Below, piece after piece: positions 3,556 through 6,971 of a DNA stretch of 12,935 nt (position 1 is the first letter of the stretch; every line of letters starts with the position of its first letter). The DNA is from Candidatus Phytoplasma phoenicium (lineage in GTDB: Bacteria > Bacillota_I > Bacilli_A > Acholeplasmatales > Acholeplasmataceae), in the NCBI RefSeq assembly GCF_001189415.1, contig NZ_JPSQ01000007.1, positions 1 to 12,935 on the forward strand. Direction: 5' to 3'. The notes beneath the pieces are model-generated. The model did no database searches. It saw only the letters and a program-made list of their open reading frames with translations, and was not told the origin of the DNA. The position numbers and the translations under genes were made by a program.

Positions 3556-5715
3556 TCATTTTCTCTGTAAATAAAGGAATAAGTTATCGTATGTTGGATT
3601 TTCTTTCGCATTCATTGGTTTTGTATATAAGGTAATATATTGTTTTACAGGATTAAAGTGGAGGAAATATGAAATTTCTTTTCTTTCACCGCGTATTTTT
3701 TTTTGAATAAAAAATTTCAAAATCCCTATATAAAAATCCTTATCTTCTTCTAAAAGATATTTTGGTCCTTCATAATCGAAACGTATTTGATGCAATAAAT
3801 AATCTATTGATACAAGAATATTTGAATCAAAATCAGATTTTGTTGACTCTCTTATTGTGCTAAAGTAATAAACGTTTTCAAAAAGATCTTTAAAGAGTTC
3901 GAATTCTTCTCTCGTTATAAAGGGATCGTTTGAATCTAAAAGCCAATTATCAAAAGGTCCTTTCATCAAAGGGGTTAAACTTTGTGCGACGAGGTCAGGA
4001 TGTTGACATTGATCTAACCCATTGAAACGTTGAAAAATGTAAGTTTTTTGCACTGGGGTCATATCTCTTTGATCAGTGAAGTATTTTAATAAGCCTTCTT
4101 TCCATTTCGCATATTCTGCTTCACAAGCTTCACGACGTTGTTGTTCTTCAGCTTGGGTTTTAAGTTGATTGATTTGAGTTTCCAACGCTTCATCTAAATC
4201 AGAAGGTAACATCACTTCATGTCGAGGAAAATGATAAGCATAATAATCGTAATTTAAAAAAGCATCATTCAGTAATTTCACCCAATCACGATTGGACAAA
4301 GATTTATCCTTAGGTAAACGATTAACTAAAGTCATAATATAATTAAAAGTATGATAACTAAGACGATAATTATTTTGTAAAATTAAGAATTCCAAAAAAC
4401 CAGGAATTTCTTCTTTCGAAAAAGAATCAATTTCAATTTCTTGTTGAAAACGACTTCTTAACGCACTATCAATTTTTTCTAAATGATTAGTCGCTCCCAT
4501 TAAAAGAATTTTTTTATTACTTCTTTTAAAACCATCTATTTTGGTTAATAAATTATTAACAATGTTACTAGCGGTTTGATTAGTATTTTTATCTTCCCGA
4601 TTCGCTAAACCACTAATTTCATCAATAAAAATCACTGCTTTGTCATGACTTTCTGCTTCGGCCCAAATCTTTTCTAATTCTTCATTTCCTTCTCCCACGT
4701 AAGTTTTGTCGAAACGAGAAGGATCTAATTCAATAAAATGTGTTTCTGTTTCTCCACAAAAAGCTTCAATTAAATGACTTTTTCCTGTTCCTGGAGGACC
4801 ATATAATAAAACACCCATGGGTCTAACATTTTGATAGCCTAAAACGTGTTTGTCTGCTTTAAAATAATGGACTAATTTTGCTAGTCGGTTTTTTTCTTTT
4901 TCCATCCCATAAACATTTTGAAAAGTTTTGGGTTTTTTCTTGTCTGTGACTAATTGAGGATTTTTTAAGATTTCAATCATTTGGTTAATTTTTTGAATTT
5001 TTTGGTTGAAAGCTAATAACTGTTTTCTTAAAAAAAGTTGGTATTTTTCTAACTGAGGAGTTTCCGTACTATGAGCGGGTTGTTCCTTTAATAATTCGGC
5101 TGTTCGTTGTTGGTTAACTTCGTTTTCTCTCATCGCTGTTTTTAAATCTTCAATTTCAGTGTAAAGTACTTGAAATTGTTGGGTTTGATTAATCACCTTA
5201 TTTTCTTGATTAATCGTTTGATGGAGAGTGGTTTGACGTTGATTCAGGGCTTTTCTTTGTTCCACTAAAGCTTGTGTGGCTTGTTCTAATTGAGTTTTTT
5301 CCTCTTTTTTGGTGGTGATGTTTTGTTGGAGGTTTTGAATTTCTTGCGTTAAAGTTTTTTTTTCTGCTTCCTCCGTCGCTGTTTTTAATTGTTCTTCTTT
5401 AGTGCTTGCTTCCTTTTCTAACTGACCAATGGCTTGGTAAAGATCTTGAATTAAGCCGATATGAGAACTGATTTGTTTGTTTAACTGGTCATCTAGCGTT
5501 TGAATTTGTTGGGCTTCTTCGATTTTCTTTTGATTTGTTTGGGTTAAGAGATTTAATTGAGTTTGGATTTGGTCCAATTCATTTGATGGATGGGTGATGG
5601 GAGTCACTGGTACTGTAGAGGAAAACATCAAGTGACAATATAGCCACGTTCCTCCAAACAAAACTACAAAACCTCCCAATAACCAACCAACAATTTTTTT
5701 CATCACTAATTTCAT
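3556..5715 (-). CDS. Membrane-anchored AAA+ ATPase with coiled coil, no protease domain
   Basis: This is an ATP-driven protein of the AAA+ group that phytoplasma annotations often relate to FtsH/HflB. From the ATG at 5715 (719 residues): one membrane segment (about 6-30), a long coiled coil (about 45-250), an AAA module (about 265-510) and a C-terminal region of about 200 residues without known motifs. Walker A is GPPGTGKS (306-313), Walker B AVIFIDE (360-366), pore loop TYVGEGNEE (Tyr339), sensor-1 Asn410 in MGATN and arginine fingers R420/R422 in ALRSRF. There is no HEXXH zinc-protease motif, so it is not a working FtsH protease; remodelling or disassembly of a protein partner is more likely. 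A longer start at 5772 is open but adds only a basic, Lys-rich leader; AAGGAA lies 10 bases before the 5715 ATG. It has its own promoter and leader. The positive-inside rule puts the ATPase outside the cytoplasm. Confidence 0.92.
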   Translation of the reverse strand: MKLVMKKIVGWLLGGFVVLFGGTWLYCHLMFSSTVPVTPITHPSNELDQIQTQLNLLTQTNQKKIEEAQQIQTLDDQLNKQISSHIGLIQDLYQAIGQLEKEASTKEEQLKTATEEAEKKTLTQEIQNLQQNITTKKEEKTQLEQATQALVEQRKALNQRQTTLHQTINQENKVINQTQQFQVLYTEIEDLKTAMRENEVNQQRTAELLKEQPAHSTETPQLEKYQLFLRKQLLAFNQKIQKINQMIEILKNPQLVTDKKKPKTFQNVYGMEKEKNRLAKLVHYFKADKHVLGYQNVRPMGVLLYGPPGTGKSHLIEAFCGETETHFIELDPSRFDKTYVGEGNEELEKIWAEAESHDKAVIFIDEISGLANREDKNTNQTASNIVNNLLTKIDGFKRSNKKILLMGATNHLEKIDSALRSRFQQEIEIDSFSKEEIPGFLEFLILQNNYRLSYHTFNYIMTLVNRLPKDKSLSNRDWVKLLNDAFLNYDYYAYHFPRHEVMLPSDLDEALETQINQLKTQAEEQQRREACEAEYAKWKEGLLKYFTDQRDMTPVQKTYIFQRFNGLDQCQHPDLVAQSLTPLMKGPFDNWLLDSNDPFITREEFELFKDLFENVYYFSTIRESTKSDFDSNILVSIDYLLHQIRFDYEGPKYLLEEDKDFYIGILKFFIQKKIRGERKEISYFLHFNPVKQYITLYTKPMNAKENPTYDNLFLYLQRK

Positions 5716-5823
5716 GATTTTCAAATTCCTTTTTTTAAATTTTCTCCTTTCCTTAATCTTTTGGGGTTTCATTCCATCAGAAGATTAAGCAAAAGAGAAA
5801 GCAATCATTTAATGTTTTCGTCA

Positions 5824-5848
5824 AAAAATGAAGGAATTTTTTTCCTTC
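5824..5848 (-). terminator. Intrinsic terminator in leader of the AAA+ gene
   Basis: On the minus strand GAAGGAA, a five-A loop, TTCCTTC, one A and then six T form a compact intrinsic terminator. It lies 110 bases upstream of the AAA+ start at 5715. It could simply end the upstream operon (last stop at 6078), but a promoter-like sequence and a competing hairpin precede it, which suggests attenuation instead. Confidence 0.65.
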
Positions 5849-5897
5849 TTGATGTTTCAGTATCTTTTGTAGGAAGATACTGAAAAGTGCAAGAAAG
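5844..5897 (-). promoter_or_regulatory. Long leader hairpin overlapping the terminator stem (candidate antiterminator)
   Basis: On the minus strand TTTCAGTATCTT (5885-5874 in reading order) and AAGATACTGAAA (5866-5855) form a perfect 12-base stem with a seven-base loop. A second stem outside it, CUUUCUUG (5897-5890) with CAAGAAGG (5851-5844), has one G-U pair. The outer arm takes GAAGG (5848-5844), which is the 5' arm of the terminator, so the two structures exclude each other. No ATG-started leader peptide is seen between them. Confidence 0.55.
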
Positions 5898-5918
5898 ATT
5901 GCTCCGAATAATTCTTCA

Positions 5919-5948
5919 ATGATAATTAATTAAGTTGGTTCTTTTCAA
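5919..5948 (-). promoter_or_regulatory. Candidate sigma-70 type promoter for the AAA+ gene
   Basis: TTGAAA (5948-5943) and TATCAT (5924-5919), each five of six to consensus, are separated by 18 bases. Transcription would begin near 5912, giving a leader of about 200 bases to the 5715 start that contains both the long hairpin and the terminator. In such AT-rich DNA chance matches are common, so confidence is moderate. Confidence 0.45.
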
Positions 5949-6077
5949 GGGGGAAAAGATATTAATAACTTTATCAAACAAACAGTTTAACGTCTTATTT
6001 GAGGACGAAAAAGTTCTTAATTTGGGTATTTTTTTATTTTTGAATAAAAATAAAGATTGATGTTCTTCTTTGTTTTT

Positions 6078-6971
6078 TTATTCTACATCATAATATAAAG
6101 TTCTTTTTTGCTTGGTTTTTTGCTCATATAAATCAATCTTTTTTAAAGATTTAATGTGATTAGTATTCCATAAAACCCCTTCTGTGACGTAATTATAAAA
6201 AGGGAATTTTAAGGCAAAGTCATAATTAAAAATAAAGAAAGGTTCTTCAATTTTTTGATTCATCGGAAAAACACCTACTACTTGGTTTTTTTCCCGATCT
6301 TTAAGGATTACTTTATGAAGGAAAAAATAACTAGGGCCACCAAAATTAGTACCTTGGTCATATAAAATATCTACTTGATAATTTTCCGGACGAAAAGGGG
6401 TAGTTTGGGGAAGATAAGGTTTAGGTTGACTCCAAAAATAATATAAAGATGAAGCTCCGTGCCCTTGTTTTTTTAAAGTAGCTAAAGAAAAAGTTTCGTC
6501 TTGGCCTTCTCTAGTACCTGCTTCAAAATATGCTAACAAAAAATGAGGAGGCGGATCTTTCAGACGAAAATCAAAAGAAACTTCATCAAGATCTGCTTGA
6601 TTATATAAAGCGTAACTAAAATGATGTTGAAAGTTTTTTTGGGGAAAAGCGTATTTTAACCACCCTAACGCTTCTTTCATCCCCGTATTTTCTCCTAAAT
6701 AAACATCATAAATGACCATTTCCCCTTCCTGTTCTTTTTTCACTGGCACCAGGGAATGATAATAAAAATCTTCAATAGGTTGGGTAGCGAGAGAATCGTA
6801 AGGAGCAGAAGCCAGATACGTCAGCGTTTTTTTGGGGACCGTGACTGCCTTGGTCAGGCGAGGAATGTCTGCAAAAACCTCGCCAGCATCCTCCTGTCTG
6901 CCCAGCAACGCGATGACATAACCACAGTAAAAAAAGAAAAACAGAAAAAGCCAACGACGAAAATGCCACAT
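6078..6971 (-). CDS. Secreted or signal-anchored protein, unknown function
   Basis: This 297-residue protein is of a type expected in phytoplasma mobile units, but I cannot assign a family. The N-terminus MWHFRRW followed by LFLFFFFYCGYVIALLG is a clear signal peptide or anchor with a possible AXA-like site near VIA. The rest is soluble, rich in Phe, Tyr and Pro, with no internal membrane segment, no coiled coil and no catalytic motif that I can see; it reads as a folded beta-rich extracytoplasmic domain. The ATG starts two bases after the upstream stop without a clear ribosome site, suggesting translational coupling. It is the last gene of the packed operon before the AAA+ leader. Its 5' part (about 6781-6920) is strikingly GC-rich, near 54 percent by direct count, against about 27 percent in an adjacent 60-base sample. 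Confidence 0.8.
   Translation of the reverse strand: MWHFRRWLFLFFFFYCGYVIALLGRQEDAGEVFADIPRLTKAVTVPKKTLTYLASAPYDSLATQPIEDFYYHSLVPVKKEQEGEMVIYDVYLGENTGMKEALGWLKYAFPQKNFQHHFSYALYNQADLDEVSFDFRLKDPPPHFLLAYFEAGTREGQDETFSLATLKKQGHGASSLYYFWSQPKPYLPQTTPFRPENYQVDILYDQGTNFGGPSYFFLHKVILKDREKNQVVGVFPMNQKIEEPFFIFNYDFALKFPFYNYVTEGVLWNTNHIKSLKKIDLYEQKTKQKRTLYYDVE

Follow-up and report, generated by a model that had tools for sequence, protein, structure and literature searches.

What separates two neighbouring genes of a phytoplasma mobile-unit operon, and could it set how much of the second gene is expressed? The DNA analyzed here, a 12,935-nt stretch from Candidatus Phytoplasma phoenicium that we call the window, carries such an operon on its minus strand, with an HU-type protein, a YqaJ recombinase, a transposase, and an AAA+ ATPase recognized by Pfam. 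The gap between the ATPase gene and the gene upstream of it measures 362 nt, versus 24–29 nt in six relatives. A preliminary description of this DNA had read part of the spacer as an attenuator-like leader of the ATPase gene, assembled from a promoter-like pair, a hairpin with an outer stem, and a terminator. We found all of these structures on the minus strand exactly where it had placed them, along with two that it does not contain: a 19-bp hairpin close to the ATPase gene and a small pseudoknot approximately 80 nt upstream of the hairpins already described (Table 1).

Table 1. Genes and RNA features of the region, in window coordinates
Feature	Position	Strand	Details
AAA+ ATPase gene (putative membrane protein), 719 aa	3556..5715	minus	Pfam AAA, 6e-35
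19-bp hairpin just 5' of the likelier ribosome-binding site	5741..5800	minus	-23.5 kcal/mol, z -4.6
Intrinsic-terminator-like hairpin, 7 bp plus T tract	5820..5848	minus	
Terminator arms	GAAGGAA 5848-5842 / TTCCTTC 5836-5830, then ATTTTTTG	minus	
GAAGG common to outer stem and terminator arm	5848-5844	minus	
12-bp hairpin and 8-9 bp outer stem as a unit	5844..5897	minus	
Outer stem, antiterminator-like	CTTTCTTG 5897-5890 + CAAGAAGG 5851-5844	minus	8 bp, 9 with one more pair
Inner stem, perfect 12 bp	5885-5874 + 5866-5855	minus	
Promoter-like pair TTGAAA-18-TATCAT, doubtful	5948-5919	minus	10/12 consensus letters
Small H-type pseudoknot, 29 nt	5979..6007	minus	model R1, covariation
Pseudoknot P1	CGTC 6007-6004 / GACG 5994-5991	minus	
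Pseudoknot P2	loop CAAATA 6001-5996 / TGTTTG 5984-5979	minus	six pairs, all form
Pseudoknot linker TTAAAC	5990-5985	minus	
Upstream gene, 297 aa, without Pfam match	6078..6971	minus	adjoins the AAA+ gene in related genomes

A 362-nt spacer before the ATPase gene

An alignment with nine homologues, seven of which have the N-terminal segment, places the start of the ATPase gene at the ATG at 5715 and not at 5772, so automatic annotation might overextend the gene by 57 nt. The same N-terminus is the basis for the putative label of membrane protein. Among named relatives, the closest to this ATPase (67% identity over 75%) is assigned to 'Ca. Phytoplasma phoenicium'. The longer open frame, from 5772, starts inside a hairpin loop. 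As for translation signals, AAAGGAG closes the 3' arm of the 19-bp hairpin, at a distance of 28 nt from the start codon; AAAAGGA at 5733-5727, which lies nearer to that codon, is the likelier ribosome-binding site.

The six genomes with a 24–29 nt junction are G001, G020, G012, G016, G008, and G009; the contig of G016 ends within the next gene, and in-frame stops interrupt the upstream copies in G009. For ten homologues of the upstream gene, no ATPase gene was detected alongside, and these are uninformative on the junction. The order is different in P. oryzae (G017): there, a structured spacer comes after the same upstream gene, and a thymidylate kinase gene lies between this spacer and the ATPase gene. 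Its spacer is 81% identical to the counterpart in G026, and the two fold alike: across 91 pairs, this comparison of two sequences yields three paired double changes, nine one-sided changes, and no broken pair. The P. oryzae spacer is closed by a hairpin placed similarly to the 19-bp hairpin of the window, with two paired double changes between G017 and G026, and the window and P. oryzae spacers contain a common sequence element at matching positions past the upstream gene.

The big closing hairpin of the G017 spacer (spacer at 434480-434090, minus strand) bears an inverted copy of the P1 sequence of the pseudoknot at its top. This inverted copy, about 290 nt away, led us to consider terminal inverted repeats of an inserted element, a reading we rejected because the copy is predicted to form the top of the hairpin. 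A triple change in P. oryzae, tried as the mark of an attenuator, was likewise discarded, the second hairpin amounting to just -2.5 to -3.3 kcal/mol.

Searched as DNA against 61 genomes, the 378-nt region returned short, mostly AT-rich matches, one of which, in P. oryzae, led to the pseudoknot motif. With this region, plasmids gave no match, and phages a single 23-nt match attributable to chance, present in two records of one phage. Genomes scanned with the AAA+ protein gave no match; with a homologue as the query, the scan recovered nine loci, including the motif-bearing P. oryzae locus. Viral sequences contained no match to the AAA+ alignment.

Competing folds ahead of the ATPase gene

The perfect 12-base hairpin and its outer stem, which were part of the preliminary description, are present and fold far better than shuffled sequence. 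Positions 5912-5824 reach -24.8 kcal/mol (z -6.1; none of 200 shuffles was as good), and a perfect hairpin of at least 12 bp arose within the 362-nt spacer in 2 of 300 shuffles. The compact terminator has standard anatomy, and the GAAGG of its 5' arm consists, as had been pointed out, of the very letters used by the outer stem. A scan of 5600-6200 detected three terminators against 0.2 expected; two of these are this one palindrome, counted once per strand, and the third falls within the gene. The promoter-like pair fared less well: its letters are in place, but promoters in the region are at chance level (1 found, 2.8 expected), and the minus strand of 5700-6100 has no match to the phytoplasma RpoD pattern published in PMC4493692.

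The outer-stem form and a forced terminator form (-24.8 and -23.7 kcal/mol, respectively) are separated by approximately 1 kcal/mol, and the predicted probability of the terminator is 0.22-0.50 in RNAs ending at 5824 and 0.04-0.18 in RNAs running to 5716. These energies and predicted probabilities indicate that two folds compete, and the arm that they share bears out the earlier view that the structures are mutually exclusive. The overlap of the outer stem with the terminator arm is itself near chance (P about 0.03-0.3). When the stem was free to lie anywhere in the 94 nt on the 5' side (5948-5855, inner hairpin included), one of at least 9 bp (8 bp) against the terminator arm appeared in 16% (30%) of 2000 shuffles; when it flanked the inner hairpin, the figure was 3.0% (6.1%) of 5000 shuffles.

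The preliminary description had named conservation of the outer stem as a test of its regulatory role, with lack of conservation counting against that role. A structural model of the hairpin identified the window site alone among 29 phytoplasma genomes, its own included (best outside site, E 0.097), and so, for these genomes, conservation was not found and the outcome is the one that counts against regulation. At the leader we saw no ligand site, trigger, or leader peptide, the last in agreement with what had been noted before.

These observations bear on whether the region is an attenuator, with the outer stem as antiterminator, the short hairpin as terminator, and a signal that picks between them and thereby sets ATPase expression. 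Like transcription attenuators, the window has a shared arm and two near-isoenergetic folds, and the strong local folding and the terminator probability in RNAs ending at 5824 also favor this reading. It differs from them in that no trigger is seen, no promoter rises above chance, and no second copy was found in the 29 phytoplasma genomes; further against it stand the near-chance overlap of the arms and the order of events, since, according to the prediction, the outer stem folds ahead of the terminator in the growing transcript and nothing was seen that would open it. The attenuator proposal is supported in part, by its exclusive folds and its terminator anatomy, and we regard the proposal as a whole as doubtful. 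A regulated choice between the outer-stem hairpin and the terminator may exist.

A plainer account treats the region as a partial terminator or insulator whose stems are unrelated and which lowers ATPase expression, or separates it from that of the upstream operon, with no switch involved. Such a device would suit a terminator that is above chance in this region, and related genomes in which the spacer is just 24-29 nt (six cases). It sits poorly, however, with a terminator located about 230 nt past the upstream gene, and it leaves the conserved pseudoknot unexplained, so that we consider it unlikely.

The pseudoknot motif in phytoplasma genomes and viral contigs

Copies of the motif follow a common layout: a 4-bp hairpin with a loop, mostly of 8 to 10 nt, that starts with CU, then UUAAAC, then a brief tail. 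Because the tail pairs with the loop as well, the element is an H-type pseudoknot. Model R1, built without the window sequence, detects the window copy at E 5.2e-6 in the window and 1.4e-4 per genome. This copy has an extra A in the loop, matched by an extra T in the tail.

Both helices display covariation. Across 20 phytoplasma sequences, 89.4% of cells pair versus 76.1% after shuffling, and 31 cells are changed on both sides versus 8.9; in neither case did any of 500 shuffles reach the observed value. In P1, the outer pair occurs as CG, UA, UG, and AU, and the third as UA, AU, and GU. A test on copies picked without reference to stem letters, at loci retrieved before the structural model was built, gave 62 of 87 pairs formed in P1 (48.7 shuffled; 0 of 2000 shuffles reach this), and with all loci, including those fetched by R1, 72 of 99 (53.3 shuffled); in both of these tests the window row counts as 0 pairs, owing to its extra loop base. 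The window row is left out of alignment A3, in which MAFFT misplaced that base, and four rows from a tandem array (locus L169) were picked partly for their pairing. For P1 alone, neither the count of doubly changed pairs (112/500) nor the pair types (60/500) exceeded those of shuffles.

No Rfam 15 model reaches its gathering score in the window, and none that covers the element exceeds its curated score, either in the window stretch or at another 33 loci. Among the matches listed for the open-access literature we found no description of the motif; newer or subscription work could hold one.

Within phytoplasma, a 23-letter pattern allowing up to 3 mismatches occurs at 16 places in 8 of 29 genomes, versus 1 when written backwards. 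Looser patterns are noisy (a degenerate 23-mer with 3 mismatches has 63 matches versus 26 reversed, and a 20-mer with 3 mismatches is at background level), and some weak matches are therefore chance. At E <=0.05, R1 has matches in 14 of the 22 phytoplasma genomes and in 1 of the 59 remaining Acholeplasmataceae genomes, a count that is partly circular because nine of the 14 supplied sequences to the model; the five that did not are G000 (the genome of the window), G001, G002, G005, and G024. Of the 17 phytoplasma copies examined, two of which are mutual orthologues, ten start within 100 nt past a same-strand stop codon, and four have an antisense frame nearby. Genes for a D12 methyltransferase, YqaJ, and a sigma factor are found upstream, and those for ssb, HU, and thymidylate kinase downstream.

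In G010, about 11 copies make up a 27-nt tandem array (L169, 1346-1634), located 3' of two genes, one of which looks sigma-factor-like by eye. The stems of this array alternate between CGTC/GACG and CATC/GATG. We set aside a reading of the motif as a promoter or sigma-factor site because its stem covaries, its loop varies in length, and most copies are read in the same direction as their neighbours. A rule by which a terminator follows the motif was also abandoned: one lies within 230 nt after 9 of 32 motif instances, seven of which come from a single array, versus 21% of random positions, which gives no clear link between motif and terminator.

The motif also occurs in viral contigs. IMG/VR holds 35 exact matches to the pattern and 0 to its reverse; over the three stem pairs scored, those whose 5' letters the pattern leaves free, 29 of the matches form all three, five form two, and one forms one. 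In the viral set of 27 distinct sequences, pairing extends to 94.7% of cells versus 83.4% shuffled, and 33 cells carry double changes versus 13.5, neither value being reached by any of 500 shuffles. At the first P2 pair, where the pattern fixes neither letter, 13 sequences have GC, 9 have AU, 1 each has CG, GU, and UA, and 2 have another combination. Counted as pairs in which a double change occurs, the viral set gives 4 versus 3.6, which is not above shuffles (318/500). Because both helices covary, the sequences support membership of the window's pseudoknot in a family common to phytoplasma and phage-like viral contigs.

These results weigh on the possibility that the spacer is a decaying insertion without function, left over between genes that adjoin each other in several relatives. 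Six genomes lack the spacer, as such a remnant would allow, and the draft genome of the organism itself (344,581 bases in 77 contigs) contains no other copy of it at E 1e-3. Yet the pseudoknot is intact down to its compensating extra base pair, and the same motif is kept at the same junction in P. oryzae, which together render this explanation highly improbable.

A sister form of the element carries a hexaloop, CGUAAU at phytoplasma loci L133-L137, L195, L208, and L209 and CGAAAA at L191 and L212. Its pattern is found in at least 120 viral stretches, with 0 in the reversed control; among the 80 hexaloop loci listed, there are 81 matches in 61 distinct contexts, with the loop CGAAAD in 30 and CGCAAD in 16. 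None of the 81 matches falls inside a same-strand open frame of at least 150 aa. In several phytoplasma mobile units (L133-L137 and their relatives), the sister element lies between a sigma-70-like gene and ssb, with a strong terminator within about 70 nt.

Proteins encoded 3' of the viral copies are often those of phage heads: among 20 tested of the 31 listed, 12 match head scaffolding proteins and 1 a major head protein family, and 5 of the 10 tested 3' of the hexaloop form (10 among 40 listed) match head scaffolding proteins as well. Such positions would be natural for a phage-derived protein-binding or translation element, acting for instance with a capsid or mobile-unit protein and with no exonuclease block, and coremin RNAs of plant viruses are described, in PMC10520033, as slowing scanning ribosomes too. 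The neighbours in phytoplasma differ, however, being ssb, HU, thymidylate kinase, and AAA+ genes, and copies stand in tandem in one genome. One viral copy (L253, 2817-2843) moreover lies between what we take by eye to be two tRNA-like sequences, and we judge a protein-binding or translational role to be distinctly unlikely. A known RNA, GP20-b (Rfam RF03003), lies 4 nt 3' of the element in L241, before a head scaffolding gene; it is a separate structure, and the coordinates of the two do not overlap.

Likeness to exonuclease-resistant RNAs

Exonuclease-resistant RNAs are best known from RNA viruses of eukaryotes. The pseudoknot resembles one class of these, coremin (xrRNA-C, plant viruses), in having a 4-bp hairpin closed by C-G and followed by a UUAAAC spacer. 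In PMC10520033, coremin is described as a 4-bp hairpin whose loop reads YGAD or YGNNAD, with a conserved spacer, and the loops CGAAAU and CGCAAU are reported to be Xrn1-resistant. The window copy possesses the first hairpin (CGTC/GACG, 6007-6004 with 5994-5991) and the spacer (TTAAACTG at 5990-5983), but its 9-nt loop CTCAAATAA departs from that consensus as given there. Coremin also needs a second hairpin; the letters that follow the spacer in the window copy pair with the loop, as a loop-tail pseudoknot, and by eye form no separate hairpin. Judged by the letters of its loop and of this missing hairpin, the window copy falls outside coremin; by analogy, it may nonetheless work in a coremin-like manner. 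The carriers differ as well, being bacteria and phage-like contigs in the present case.

The phytoplasma sister form fits the first hairpin, the YGNNAD loop, and the spacer of coremin as set out in that source (CGTC-CGTAAT-GACG-TTAAACTA; L133-L137, L195, L208, and L209), and TTATT/AATAA after the spacer could pair by eye at L133, L134, L136, and L137. In the viral hexaloop contexts (61 among the loci listed), the 28 nt past the spacer are no more stably folded than shuffled sequence (-1.68 versus -1.66 kcal/mol), and 21 of the 61 are below their own shuffle mean.

A second comparison, made by description, is with the resistant RNAs of flaviviruses. These too are folded RNAs; they act as a mechanical block to 5'-3' exonucleases, and one of them, according to PMC5760640, halts bacterial RNase J1 in vitro. 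They differ from the present element in being larger, elaborate assemblies of stem-loops and pseudoknots, as portrayed in PMC10520033. RNases J1 and J2 are reported for all Mollicutes analyzed in PMC4014445. In phages of hosts that lack RNase J, the pseudoknot would need another role.

Our main reading, to which we assign a probability of about 0.4, is that the spacer is a structured intercistronic RNA in which the pseudoknot would block a 5'-3' exonuclease and thereby protect a leader that includes a partial terminator. The spacer would be transcribed, probably by read-through from the upstream genes. On account of its likeness to coremin, we infer that the pseudoknot would bring an exonuclease running 5' to 3', for example RNase J, to a halt, and RNA downstream of 6007 would then outlive the upstream part of the message. 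The outer-stem hairpin and the terminator would sit within this protected RNA. There, the terminator would probably halt some polymerases near 5824, producing a short RNA of roughly 184 nt, and would be expected to lower read-through into the ATPase gene and with it the amount of ATPase message.

We tentatively extend this reading to the family as a whole: a large group of tiny pseudoknots of coremin-like design may serve as roadblocks to 5'-3' exonucleases in bacterial mobile elements and phages, determining in phytoplasma mobile units which portion of an operon message is kept and, at the present locus, guarding the ATPase leader and message. The presence of a covarying 29-nt relative in phage-like contigs as well as in phytoplasma mobile units would point to the same strategy being turned against RNA decay in bacteria. 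If true, it would provide a testable handle on how genes within one mobile-unit operon come to unequal levels in these uncultured plant pathogens.
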